DNA of 64,000 nt from Nocardioides potassii (GTDB lineage: Bacteria > Actinomycetota > Actinomycetes > Propionibacteriales > Nocardioidaceae): assembly GCF_021648885.1 (NCBI RefSeq), contig NZ_JAKJHZ010000002.1, positions 1 through 64,000 on the forward strand, written 5' to 3'. The notes beneath the pieces are model-generated. The model searched no databases, was not told where the DNA came from, and was given only the letters and a program-made list of their open reading frames with translations. Below are positions 20,674-24,365 of this stretch, one piece after another. The first letter of the stretch is position 1, and every line of letters starts with the position of its first letter. The position numbers and the translations under genes were made by a program.

Positions 20674-20681
20674 TGTGCTTG

Positions 20682-20755
20682 TGGGCAGGGGCGGGGTCGA
20701 ACCGCCGACCTATCACTTTTCAGGCGATCGCTCGTACCAACTGAGCTACCTGCCC
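20682..20755 (-). tRNA. tRNA-Phe (GAA)
   Basis: Full cloverleaf on the minus strand: acceptor GGGCAGG/CCTGCCC, D-arm GCTC/GAGC, anticodon stem ATCGC/GTGAT with loop CTGAAAA (anticodon GAA), T-arm GGCGG-TTCGACC-CCGCC, and discriminator A. CCA is not encoded. A strong hairpin terminator follows. Confidence 0.97.
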
Positions 20756-20811: not shown

Positions 20812-22161
20812 TCAGTCCGTCGAGGACGGCACCGACGCGAGGGGGTCCGCGGGGAGCTCGAGCCAGAAGGTGGAGCCCGTCCCGGGGACCGACTCGCCCT
20901 GCACCGCGCCACCGTCGCGCTCGGCCATGGTGCGCGAGATCGTCAGCCCCAGGCCGGTGCCCTTGCGCCCGTCGGCCGCGAAGCGGACGAACGGCTCGAA
21001 GGCGCGCGAGAGCTGCTCGGCGTCGAGTCCGGGGCCGTCGTCGCGCACGACGATCCGCACCATCGGGTGGCCGCTCTCGCCGACGAGCCGGTCGGCGGAG
21101 ATGTGGACGGTGCCGCCGGCGGCGCGGTGGTGGTTGATGGCGTTGCCGACGAGGTTGGTCAGGATCTGGCGCACGGCGGACGCGTGGGCCCACACGGTCA
21201 CAGCGGGGTCGATGTCGACGGTCATCTCCACCGAGCCGGTGGCGGCGGGCGAGAGGTGCCAGTGCACGACGTCGGCGACGGCGTCGGCGACCCCGACCTG
21301 GGTGCGGCCGTCGTCGCCGGCGAGGGTGCGGCCGGCGCCGAGCAGGCTGTCGACGATGGCGAGCAGCTGCTCGGACGCGCGCACGATCCGCGGACCGTCG
21401 CGCAGCACCCCGGACACGACGTCGTCGGGGGTGCCGTGCTCGGCGTCGTCGATGAGGCCCTCCGTGTAGCCGAGGACCGCCGTCACCGGCGTGCGCAGCT
21501 CGTGCCCGACCGCGCCGAAGAGCTGCTGGTAGCCCAGCTGCGCCTCGGCGCTGGCGTCCAGCGCCTCGGCGAGCGCACGCCGGGCCTGCTCGAGGGTCAG
21601 CCGGGAGGTGATCGCAGCCGTGAGCAGCCGGAAGTCGTCGAGCAGCTGCGCGGGCCACGCGCCGGCCTCGTCGCACGACAGCGACATGCTGCCGAACATC
21701 CCCCCGCGCGAGCGGAACGAGGTAGCGACGAAGCTGCCGACCCCCTCGCGCTCGAGCTGGTCGCGGTCCTCGGCCGCCTCCGGGGGGAGGAGCGCGCGAT
21801 CGGTCAGGACGACCATGCGGCTCTCGCGTCCGCGCTGGGAGAGCCACGGCATCGTCAGCGCCGCCTCGGGGCCGGCCCCCGGCGGTGGCAGGAGGGTGCG
21901 GGTCGACCCCGGCGGTGTCCACTCGCGCACCCACGCCCGACCGCCGAGCTGGATCCACCTGCTCGGGTCGTCGGGGGTGAAGCTGGTCAGGACGGCGGTG
22001 ACGGTCTGGACGCGCGGCTCGGCCAGGAGGTGGTCGACGGTGCGCTGCAGCGCCTCCTCGAGGGCGAGGTCCTCGTCGACGACCTCGGCGGCGAGGGCGG
22101 CGGCGGTCGCGGAGACCGGGCCCGCGGCGACGCTGGTCTGCAGCGCGGAGTCCTCGCTCAC
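20812..22161 (-). CDS. Cytosolic sensor histidine kinase (GAF-HisKA-HATPase)
   Basis: 449-residue kinase with no transmembrane segment. The N-terminal 200 residues look like a GAF-type sensor. The phospho-acceptor H-box is GAVGHELRTPVTAVLGY (His near 229), the N-box is LTNLVGNAINHH near 347, and the G-boxes DDGPGLD and GTGLGLT are near 392 and 420. The GTG start overlaps the P450 stop by 4 bases and is preceded by GAGGAGG, so kinase and P450 are translationally coupled. A single-domain response regulator is encoded about 1.4 kb upstream on the same strand and is the obvious partner. The signal is unknown. Confidence 0.88.
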   Translation of the reverse strand: MSEDSALQTSVAAGPVSATAAALAAEVVDEDLALEEALQRTVDHLLAEPRVQTVTAVLTSFTPDDPSRWIQLGGRAWVREWTPPGSTRTLLPPPGAGPEAALTMPWLSQRGRESRMVVLTDRALLPPEAAEDRDQLEREGVGSFVATSFRSRGGMFGSMSLSCDEAGAWPAQLLDDFRLLTAAITSRLTLEQARRALAEALDASAEAQLGYQQLFGAVGHELRTPVTAVLGYTEGLIDDAEHGTPDDVVSGVLRDGPRIVRASEQLLAIVDSLLGAGRTLAGDDGRTQVGVADAVADVVHWHLSPAATGSVEMTVDIDPAVTVWAHASAVRQILTNLVGNAINHHRAAGGTVHISADRLVGESGHPMVRIVVRDDGPGLDAEQLSRAFEPFVRFAADGRKGTGLGLTISRTMAERDGGAVQGESVPGTGSTFWLELPADPLASVPSSTD

Positions 22162-23297
22162 AGAGACCCTCCTCGCCCCGCGTCGTCGACGGCGTCGTCG
22201 ATCGTCAGGAGACACGGTAGCGGTGCGATGCCCCGGCTCTGGTCGATCCCCACGTGCCCCGCGAGGCCCAGCCGGTGCCGGCCCGCCCACGTCGCGAGGT
22301 GCACGAGCTGGGCGAGCCCGAGCGTCCTCCCGGGGCAGGCGTGTGGACCGGCGCCGAACGGCAGCCACGCCCCGGGGCGGTGGGACCCGTCGGTCCATCG
22401 GGACGGGTCGAACCCGGCGAGCGCGTCCGGGTCACCGGGCACCAGCTCGGGGAGCCGGCCGAGGAGCAGCGGGCTCACCAGGACGACGCGTCCGGCCGGG
22501 ACCTCCGTGCCGGCGAGGTCGACCGGCTCCGTGGTGATGCGGGCCGTGACCCACGTCGGTGGCGTCAGCCGCAGCGTCTCCCAGACCGCGTGCAGCGGAT
22601 CGCGGTCGGGGTCCTCCGCGGTGTCGGCGGGGTGCGCGGCGAGCCAGGCGAGCAGCCACGCGCCCGCGGCGATCGGGACCTGCACGCCCGCGGCGAGCAT
22701 GGTCGCGACCTGCTCGGGCGGCGTCGCGAGGTCGGGCACGGCCCTCAGGGCGTCGTCGAGGGCGAAGCGGGCGTCGCGCTCGGCACGCCTGGCGCGGCTC
22801 CATCGACCGGGCGGTCGCCGCGCGGAGATGACGGGTGCGAGCGCGTCGATCCACGCGAGGGTCAGGTCGGCGACCCGGTCGCGGGTGGGCACGTCGGTGA
22901 CGAGCACCGCCGCCACCGTCGAGCGGGCCACCGGACGCCGCAGCAGCACCGTGGCGTCGTACGGCGTCCCGGGGGCGGTGCGGTCGTGCTCGGCGATCGC
23001 CGAATGCCACTCCGTCTCGAGCACCTCGCGTCCCCTGGCCACCTCGGCGGGGGTGAGGGGAGGGAGCACGACGTGGCCCGAGCGGGTCTCGCCCCGGCTG
23101 GCCGAGAGGTCGCCGCTGCGGCTCACGTCACCGGGGAAGTCGAAGCGGTCGGGCTCGGTCAGCACCCGCCGCGCGAGCGCGGGCGTGGTGACCAGCCACG
23201 GTCCGTGGGGGCCGAGGGCGACGGCCCCCGACCGTGGGGCCGAGAGGACAGCGCCGAGCCGGCCACCGGCCGACTCGACGCTGTCCAGGTGCATCAC
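22158..23297 (-). CDS. Cytochrome P450, atypical I-helix
   Basis: 379-residue heme-thiolate enzyme. The heme loop PFGAGPHACPG gives the axial ligand Cys321, and the ExxR pair is E240-T-L-R243. The I-helix stretch (about 198-215, TMLAAGVQVPIAAG) lacks the usual acid-alcohol pair that delivers protons for O2 cleavage, so ordinary hydroxylation may not be its chemistry. It lies 48 bases downstream of a 31-codon peptide gene with a Tyr-Tyr-Leu-Trp segment, and ahead of a coupled histidine kinase. Macrocyclisation of that peptide is the leading hypothesis. The start is GTG, or the ATG that follows it at once; no ribosome site is clear. Confidence 0.9.
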   Translation of the reverse strand: MMHLDSVESAGGRLGAVLSAPRSGAVALGPHGPWLVTTPALARRVLTEPDRFDFPGDVSRSGDLSASRGETRSGHVVLPPLTPAEVARGREVLETEWHSAIAEHDRTAPGTPYDATVLLRRPVARSTVAAVLVTDVPTRDRVADLTLAWIDALAPVISARRPPGRWSRARRAERDARFALDDALRAVPDLATPPEQVATMLAAGVQVPIAAGAWLLAWLAAHPADTAEDPDRDPLHAVWETLRLTPPTWVTARITTEPVDLAGTEVPAGRVVLVSPLLLGRLPELVPGDPDALAGFDPSRWTDGSHRPGAWLPFGAGPHACPGRTLGLAQLVHLATWAGRHRLGLAGHVGIDQSRGIAPLPCLLTIDDAVDDAGRGGSL

Positions 23298-23345
23298 GGT
23301 GTGAGCATCACTGTCGATGCCTCACGTCCGAGTGCCGGACCAGCC

Positions 23346-23441
23346 TCAGCGACGGCCGGGGGCCGGACGCCACAGGTAGTAGGACTGCAGCTGGTTGTTG
23401 GCACGGGCGGACTCGATGCGGGTGCGGATGCGGTTCATCAT
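23346..23441 (-). CDS. Small peptide, candidate P450-modified RiPP precursor
   Basis: 31-residue peptide with double ATG, preceded by GGAGAAGAAATC, a convincing ribosome site. The first part is an Arg-rich amphipathic helix-like leader (residues 3-16, NRIRTRIESARANN). Then comes QLQSYYLW (17-24) with three clustered aromatic residues, and a basic tail RPAPGRR (25-31). Short leader, aromatic core and adjacent P450 recall biarylitide, cittilin and atropopeptide pathways, whose P450s crosslink Tyr/Trp/His side chains. The extra C-terminal tail would have to be trimmed. It could instead be a signal peptide sensed by the neighbouring kinase. No homolog search was possible. Confidence 0.6.
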   Translation of the reverse strand: MMNRIRTRIESARANNQLQSYYLWRPAPGRR

Positions 23442-23540
23442 GATTTCTTCTCCAGGGGGATTGCCGAGAAGCACGGTCGGTCGACCGCGCCCCGACGCCA
23501 CCCGGAGTCCGAACCCCCGTGAAGCTGTCAGGGTCGGGAG

Positions 23541-23933
23541 TCAGGACTCCACGTCGGGCAGCGTCTCGGCAATCAGATCAGTCAATTGCTGAATCCGCAG
23601 CGGCTTCTGCATGACTGTCTCAACTCCGAGCTCCTGGAGGGCCGCTCGGTGCTCCCCTGCCCAGGCGCTGATCACGACCACGCGCATCTCCGCGCCCACC
23701 TCCGGGTGGTCCCGCATCCAGCGCACCACCTCGACGCCGTTCATCCGCGGCATGGTGAGGTCGAGGAGCATCACGTCGAAGGTCTCGTGCTGCATCCGCT
23801 CGACGGCCTCGAGGCCGTCGTTGGCGGTGGTGGCCTCGTGGCCCGCGCGGCGGACCAGGCGGCAGAACACGTCGCGGATGTCCTCGTTGTCGTCGACAAC
23901 GAGGAAGCGCAGCTGTCGTGCCCCCGTGCTCAC
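23541..23933 (-). CDS. Single-domain response regulator
   Basis: 130-residue CheY-like receiver with no output domain. The acidic pair is in FLVVDDNEDI (residues 10-19), the phospho-acceptor Asp in VMLLDLTMPRMNG near 60, the switch Ser in VVISAW near 89, and the invariant Lys in MQKPL near 110. The likely partner is the coupled histidine kinase two genes downstream. Without a DNA-binding domain it would act by protein contact or as a phosphate relay. It is first in the minus-strand group RR, peptide, P450, kinase; 99 bases separate it from the peptide gene. Confidence 0.92.
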   Translation of the reverse strand: MSTGARQLRFLVVDDNEDIRDVFCRLVRRAGHEATTANDGLEAVERMQHETFDVMLLDLTMPRMNGVEVVRWMRDHPEVGAEMRVVVISAWAGEHRAALQELGVETVMQKPLRIQQLTDLIAETLPDVES

Positions 23934-24098
23934 TCGGCAAGGCTAGTCAAACTTCGGGGCATCTCGTGGCAAGTCTCAGCCAACTTTCGACCAATGTCGG
24001 CGTGTCGTGGTCCTCGACGGACGCCGACGGGCGGGTTTGGGGGCCCGCTCGCGGATGCCCCTATGCTGATGCCGTCTGACGGTTCGCCCGGCAGGCTG

Positions 24099-24171
24099 GC
24101 CCCCATCGTCTAGCGGCCCAGGACCCCGCCCTTTCACGGCGGTAGCGCCGGTTCGAATCCGGTTGGGGGTG
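24099..24171 (+). tRNA. tRNA-Glu (TTC)
   Basis: Cloverleaf on the plus strand: acceptor GCCCCCA/TGGGGGT, anticodon stem CCGCC/GGCGG with loop CTTTCAC (anticodon TTC), T-arm GCCGG-TTCGAAT-CCGGT and discriminator G. CCA is not encoded. A -10-like TATGCT at 24062-24067 lies about 30 bases upstream of the tRNA. Confidence 0.96.
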
Positions 24172-24279
24172 CGACCGGTCCCGTGCCCGACGCCGATTCG
24201 TGGTCGCGGAAGGGCATGGGTTAGAGTTCCACCCGCTCCACCAGCACCACCGGAGGAGCACGAAGCAGCAGCATCACGA

Positions 24280-24353
24280 GGCCCCGTAGCGCAGTTGGTT
24301 AGCGCGCCGCCCTGTCACGGCGGAGGCCGCGGGTTCGAGTCCCGTCGGGGTCG
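24280..24353 (+). tRNA. tRNA-Asp (GTC)
   Basis: Cloverleaf: acceptor GGCCCCG/CGGGGTC, D-arm with GTTGGTTAG, anticodon stem CCGCC/GGCGG with loop CTGTCAC (anticodon GTC), and T-arm GCGGG-TTCGAGT-CCCGT. CCA follows directly (24354-24356). It lies 108 bases after tRNA-Glu and just before a strong hairpin. Confidence 0.97.
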
Positions 24354-24365
24354 CCAACGCATGCC

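Follow-up and report, generated by a model that had tools for sequence, protein, structure and literature searches.

A P450-linked peptide gene and its two-component pair in Nocardioides: a four-gene unit predicted to form a Tyr-Trp crosslink

Organization of the locus

Positions 1-64,000 of contig NZ_JAKJHZ010000002.1 from Nocardioides potassii (assembly GCF_021648885.1; this whole 64,000-nt stretch is called the window) carry four minus-strand genes in the order response regulator, short peptide, cytochrome P450 and histidine kinase, as read from the window sequence and its open reading frames (ORFs). On balance, the unit is best understood as one in which the predicted role of the P450 is to link Tyr to Trp within the peptide's Tyr-x-Trp-Arg core, and whose product probably acts on, or is controlled by, the kinase and regulator encoded beside it. 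An initial annotation had described the four genes, their order, a 4-base overlap of kinase and P450, and a strong ribosome site before a 31-codon peptide, and all of these were confirmed.

The first gene (23541..23933, minus strand) encodes a single-domain, receiver-only response regulator of 130 amino acids (Pfam Response_reg). The precursor peptide gene (23346..23441, minus strand), recognized as an ORF with P450-linked conservation, encodes the 31 amino acids MMNRIRTRIESARANNQLQSYYLWRPAPGRR. Its ribosome-binding site, GGAGAAG (23447..23453, minus strand), was located by sequence and lies 5 bases 5' of an ATGATG start, and the invariant core Tyr-x-Trp-Arg, defined by peptide alignment, occupies residues 22-25 (23367..23378, minus strand). 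The third gene (22158..23297, minus strand; Pfam p450) encodes a cytochrome P450 of about 379 amino acids with an uncertain start codon, the predicted crosslinking enzyme. At the 5' end of its reading frame lies an RNA hairpin with a 19-bp stem and a 3-nt loop (23246..23286, minus strand), identified by folding z score and covariation. The last gene (20812..22161, minus strand) encodes a histidine kinase of 449 amino acids with a GAF-like input domain, HisKA and HATPase_c, and no evident membrane span; it shares the 4 bases 22158-22161 with the P450 gene. ARAGORN places the unit's borders at a tRNA-Phe gene downstream (20681..20755, minus strand) and at tRNA-Glu and tRNA-Asp genes upstream (24099..24356, plus strand), and neither the ORFs nor ARAGORN reveal a fifth gene between them.

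Linkage and distribution of the unit

Searches for homologous loci were anchored on the P450, not on the peptide. In a sample of 58 genomes, made up of the source genome of the window and 57 relatives, P450 matches at E<=1e-10 were found in 33 and were full-length in 11, own genome included. The ten other full-length orthologues are 55-69% identical to the window P450; the remaining 22 matching genomes, with a partial match of at most 45% identity, were set aside. In each of the 11, a short ORF encoding Y-x-W-R stands ahead of the P450. Scanning named genomes with the 11-sequence P450 alignment yielded 36 loci, of which 35 carry the title Nocardioides and the other comes from a metagenome-assembled genome named only Actinomycetota, and in every one of the 36 the peptide ORF lies directly upstream of the P450. 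It was also present in 13/13 further loci from two later searches, several of them from the same species. The proposal that a short peptide is conserved beside the P450 in other Nocardioides was thus borne out; loss of peptide conservation upstream of P450 homologs had been named as evidence to the contrary, and conservation was found.

The kinase is linked in 36/36 named loci, overlapping the P450 gene by 4 nt in 27 of them, and the regulator in 35/36, in agreement with the earlier assignment of both to the same unit. The sole locus without a linked regulator is that of N. currus, where the contig starts inside a peptide array; its regulator lies near the end of another contig and is followed by more array copies. 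A peptide profile (E<0.01), the full-length P450 (E<1e-80) and the kinase (E<1e-40) detect exactly the same 11 of the 58 genomes, all of one genus. No peptide or kinase match at these thresholds occurs in the other 47, of which 26 belong to that genus, and therefore most Nocardioides in the 58-genome sample are without the unit. The genomes are related, so that these presence and absence counts are not independent events. In view of the strict linkage, it is likely that regulator and kinase belong functionally to the peptide.

In wider searches, P450 matches were obtained at E<=1e-25 in 31/197 genomes of the family (1/26 genera) and at E<=1e-20 in 6/246 genomes of the class (1/103 genera); both searches scored 8-10 candidates per genome and may have missed distant forms. 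A protein catalogue of 5.8 billion proteins, with 7,995 candidates scored, gave 460 P450 matches at E<=1e-20, of which the best 120 were examined.

The precursor peptide and its invariant core

The peptides are 24-31 amino acids long, with the Tyr of the core falling at position 18-22. In Y-x-W-R, the Tyr, Trp and Arg are invariant in 37/37 sequences (the 36 named loci and the window), while seven kinds of residue occupy x and four codons write the Arg. Pro follows the core Arg in 34/37, and an Arg stands nine residues before the core Tyr in 33/37. Within the 31-amino-acid group, position -1 takes seven kinds of residue and position +1 takes five. The diverged peptides of L093-L095 keep the same core, with K, R or P as the next residue. 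Of two traits stressed in the initial annotation, the aromatic cluster YYLW holds in its Y-x-W part, the first Tyr recurring in only 5/37 peptides; the basic tail proves to be a C-terminus that varies, with 3-6 residues following the invariant Arg, and is not basic in every peptide. None of the 37 peptides ends in Asp. A purine-rich site precedes the peptide in most relatives; in the N. currus array the internal copies lack it.

As a control, 1,546 ATG ORFs of 20-40 amino acids (nested starts counted) were collected from the window and L031-L076, and 90 contain Y.WR. There are one or two per locus and six in each of two N. currus array loci, and because these are the numbers of the peptide gene alone, the motif is not a product of chance. 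In the window and L031-L040, every ORF with the looser Y.W motif was the peptide gene, by its listed position. Pfam gave no match to the window precursor or ten relatives, and NCBIfam no above-chance match to 11 peptides (a single match at E 0.02 in one of them); routine annotation is likely to miss this gene.

Selection on the peptide was judged from 136 pairs among 17 sequences of the 31-amino-acid group. The median whole-gene ratio of nonsynonymous to synonymous change (dN/dS) is 0.64 with dS 0.31, against 0.34 and 0.80 for the P450 in the same pairs; the low peptide dS implies that the nucleotides are also constrained. A near-neutral ratio had been named beforehand as a sign against the peptide, and here the outcome was mixed, as the median is unconvincing and in part favors that objection, and the site pattern is convincing. 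It is this pattern in the alignment, a fixed core, an Arg with synonymous change and free flanks, and not dN/dS, that decides for probable selection on the peptide.

In N. currus (L063, L036, L081) the whole peptide ORF occurs in head-to-tail copies spaced 89 bases apart, and the stop codon of each overlaps the start of the following one. Two contig ends together hold six peptide matches and share an exact 88-base overlap, and thus there are at least five copies, plus a first copy broken by N. Tandem amplification of this kind appears to fit a precursor gene better than an attenuator or regulatory upstream ORF.

Another inverted repeat, smaller than the hairpin at the P450 (many relatives have GCACGYC...GRCGTGC; window about 23469-23495), stands before the peptide ribosome site in many loci, as judged by eye from an alignment of 32 of the 37.

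The cytochrome P450 and the hairpin at its start

The window protein matches Pfam p450 at 1.3e-17, and its ExxR motif (E240, R243) and heme Cys321 are invariant in 37/37. Many P450s carry (A/G)Gx(D/E)T in the I-helix; here A-A-G-x-Q-V-P is found in 37/37, and an aligned CYP51 has A-G-H-H-T. A structural model with pLDDT 87.7, used in place of a first model at pLDDT 70, matches P450 structures over residues 5-372. Fold comparison was nonetheless rejected as a guide to function, the scores of the P450s listed being nearly tied. P450Blt, a peptide-crosslinking enzyme, ranked third in Foldseek (E 5.6e-12, TM 0.60, 21% identity) among many P450s with similar scores; it was not among the 50 rows of another structure search, absence from such lists being no evidence.

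The hairpin lies between the peptide stop and the P450 core, where the P450 reading frame begins. Its folding z scores are -5.5 in the window, -5.6 in L075, -3.4 in L066 and -3.3 in L068, and +0.5 in L069 and -0.8 in L074, so that some lineages have no notable hairpin. In 37 sequences the stem pairs in 88.9% of cells versus 84.2 in shuffled alignments. Pairs changed on both sides number 7 versus 4.0 (7/500 shuffles reach 7), and cells changed on both sides 31 versus 7.9 (standard deviation 2.3; 0/500 shuffles reach 31), some of this compensatory excess being expected from relatedness and coding constraint; the best slid alignment of the hairpin gave 5 pairs and 20 cells. The P450 start itself is not conserved, with GTG or TTG at one place in 24/37. 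Stem-loops between precursor and maturase genes lower the amount of enzyme in some lantibiotic operons, and the hairpin and weak P450 start may likewise keep the enzyme level below that of the peptide. L064 and L067 have an open P450 frame but no in-frame ATG, GTG or TTG ahead of the hairpin; at the place where ATG or GTG is found in many others, they have ATC.

The kinase and the response regulator

Pfam identifies HisKA (4.5e-8) and HATPase_c (7.8e-24) in the window kinase, and H220 and E221, D374, G376 and G378, and G403, L404 and G405 are invariant in 37 kinases. A crude test of hydropathy gives no clear sign of a membrane span: the best 19-residue score has a median of 1.32 in the 37, with four, the window kinase not among them, reaching 1.6-1.92. 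The window regulator matches Response_reg at 6.4e-23. Asp58 (the phospho-acceptor position), D15 and K110 are invariant in 36/36 aligned regulators, all 120-134 amino acids long; by Pfam, the window regulator is receiver only, with no DNA-binding domain. The catalytic residues of both proteins are thus intact in the alignments, and kinase and regulator are predicted to be an active pair.

The HisKA region is nearly identical among the kinases of L042, L049, L053, L054 and L055, which differ in their input domains, as after gene conversion. A second receiver-only regulator, about 61% identical, is encoded in the own genome at G000:C3:99282-99647 (L077 5286-5648), and no P450 or kinase match was found beside it in the 12 kb taken. 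This and the regulator relatives of three other genomes (G035, G018 and G004; 45-62% identity for the four) were set aside as paralogues because their stretches have no P450 or kinase match and no Y.W-type small ORF, the G004 stretch ending at a contig end just past the regulator gene.

Predicted pathway and alternative explanations

That the P450 modifies the peptide is predicted with high confidence. Formation of a Tyr-Trp ring is the likely outcome, because ring closure at Y-x-W is established P450 chemistry. Tyr-Trp links have been reported for P450Blt (PMC12951456). ApyO crosslinks YLY, and according to PMC13192836 a YLW variant is modified with a 2 Da loss and an Arg or Lys in the substrate is needed. 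Micitide and lapparbin are described as ribosomally synthesized and post-translationally modified peptides (RiPPs) with a Tyr-Trp side-chain link (PMC13250620).

In the proposed pathway the peptide would be made in excess over the P450 by way of its strong ribosome site, and its basic N-terminal part may be a leader that binds the enzyme. The P450 would remove two hydrogens, giving a Tyr-Trp side-chain bond and so a three-residue ring before the invariant Arg. Kinase and P450 would be translated in a coupled way and work in the cytosol, where the signal sensed by the GAF-like domain may be the modified peptide or else the oxidative conditions required to make it. Phosphate would pass to the receiver-only regulator, which, having no DNA-binding domain, would act on another protein. 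Two-component control of the peptide is only one possible role for the pair. The unit may instead be a cytosolic module whose ring-closed peptide is the dedicated ligand of the soluble kinase, an internal second messenger reporting, for example, oxygen, heme or redox supply; this is put forward tentatively.

Several observations weigh against the pathway as drawn. The identification of the ring peptide as kinase ligand is a guess, and a doubtful one. The stretch between the window unit's tRNA borders contains no gene for a protease, exporter or ferredoxin. The GAF match of the window kinase falls below the Pfam cut-off (18.9 vs 22.4 bits) and reaches E<=0.01 in only 15/37 kinases. Structure searches do not single out peptide-crosslinking P450s. 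ApyO, the best NCBIfam model for the window P450 and one that matches 37/37 members, aligns weakly and over residues 237-354 only (76.3 bits against a cut-off of 525), and models for the terpene-oxidising albaflavenone and pentalenene oxygenases also match 37/37, with weaker best E-values. The higher dN/dS of the peptide than of the P450 is not decisive for coding.

An ordinary secreted P450-crosslinked RiPP (an antibiotic, metal binder or signal), with kinase and regulator only switching the locus on upon an outside or redox cue and never meeting the product, is possible though rather unlikely. Two-component control of RiPP genes is known, as with NisK/NisR (PMC10257480), and Tyr-Trp crosslinked RiPPs made by P450s are described in PMC13250620 and PMC12951456. 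Against this reading stand a regulator that has no DNA-binding domain, a kinase without evident membrane span, and the lack of an exporter or immunity gene between the borders of the window unit.

The P450 might also modify the peptide in another way, by hydroxylation, nitration or a bond to the backbone or Arg, without forming the ring. RufO, related to the biarylitide P450s, is reported to nitrate a peptide Tyr instead of crosslinking it (PMC13417212), and in YxWR the Arg is conserved as strictly as the two aromatic residues; however, Tyr and Trp are kept at i,i+2, the known spacing of P450 rings, with the middle residue free, and the four-gene unit holds no nitric oxide synthase gene, which leaves this alternative improbable. 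Less probable still is a peptide that is no substrate but a small protein serving as partner to the P450 or kinase, with the P450 acting on a small molecule sensed by the kinase. In favor of this, the peptide has a basic character, certain P450-like proteins serve only as activators (TIGR04515 matches weakly in 30/37), and the terpene-oxidising models match throughout, but conservation is concentrated in the four-residue aromatic core while the rest drifts, and peptide copies are amplified in N. currus. A translational attenuator or chance ORF, already disfavored, is very improbable: the strong hairpin 3' of the ORF and the nucleotide-level constraint seen in the low dS would suit it, yet it leaves unaccounted for the unchanging amino acids (with synonymous change at Arg), the tandem copies and the shared occurrence with the P450 across genomes.

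Relation to known systems

Of the systems compared with the unit, the biarylitides (BytA/BytO, P450Blt) are alike in having a P450 beside a tiny precursor, a ring (in the unit, a predicted one) that joins aromatic residues at i,i+2 and, within the reach of P450Blt, a Tyr-Trp link (PMC12951456, PMC13417212). Their precursors have 5-8 residues with aromatics at positions 3 and 5, as given in PMC13417212, compared with 24-31 residues here; an invariant Arg after the core and a fixed kinase and regulator are further differences, and the window P450 is about 21-22% identical to P450Blt by structural alignment. The aminopyruvatides (ApyA/ApyO) share the best-matching P450 model, a YxY/YxW core and the need for a basic substrate residue (PMC13192836). 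They differ in that the unit P450 lies far below the ApyO cut-off, and in an MNIO gene, absent from the window unit, and a C-terminal Asp, absent from the 37 peptides. Micitide and lapparbin are likened by the predicted Tyr-Trp side-chain link alone, and not by precursors or P450s (PMC13250620).

For the signalling genes, NisRK-type autoregulation of RiPPs likewise has a two-component pair encoded at the same locus as the peptide and its maturase (PMC10257480). The unit differs in its kinase without evident membrane span, its regulator without output domain, and the lack of exporter and protease. NisRK-like peptide sensing uses a membrane-bound kinase and a regulator with a DNA-binding output domain. 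Streptomyces conservons, which consist of a kinase, roadblock, DUF742, GTPase and P450, also have a kinase beside a P450; the unit has no roadblock, DUF742 or GTPase gene between its tRNA borders and does have a precursor peptide.

No report of this locus was found in the literature listings searched, and it may have been listed earlier in papers mining for P450-RiPPs (Hu 2023, Liu 2024). P450 crosslinking at YxW is known chemistry, and the fixed tie to a cytosolic two-component pair may be the new part. Most P450-crosslinked RiPPs so far have shown little or no activity in the usual antimicrobial screens (PMC13417212). A peptide locked to one kinase in every locus seen (and to the regulator in all save the contig-end locus) offers a testable lead to what P450-made RiPPs are used for, and the unit also supplies a compact system of two proteins in which Tyr-Trp ring formation is probable.

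Borders and minor features

Beyond the borders, among 14 mechanical ORFs scanned, Pfam named CrcB, a hexapeptide transferase and a Glu/Leu/Phe/Val dehydrogenase. Rfam at gathering cut-offs gave tRNAs only. tRNA-Phe lies downstream of the unit in 29/36 named loci, and tRNA-Glu and tRNA-Asp lie upstream in the same order in most relatives among the loci listed (to L064). At L038-L040, tRNA-Arg(tct) is near the unit and neither tRNA-Glu nor tRNA-Phe is near, which suggests that the unit has occupied more than one tRNA site. The window tRNA-Phe (20681-20755) has an acceptor and anticodon stem altered relative to a sister lineage (GGGCAGG... vs GGCCAGG...); it is unlisted at the Rfam gathering score, and the same form is common to many relatives. 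Finally, the sequence TTTGACTAxxCTTG recurs a few bases 5' of the regulator's GTG start in many loci (window about 23937-23951), and it looks like the -10 element of a leaderless mRNA.

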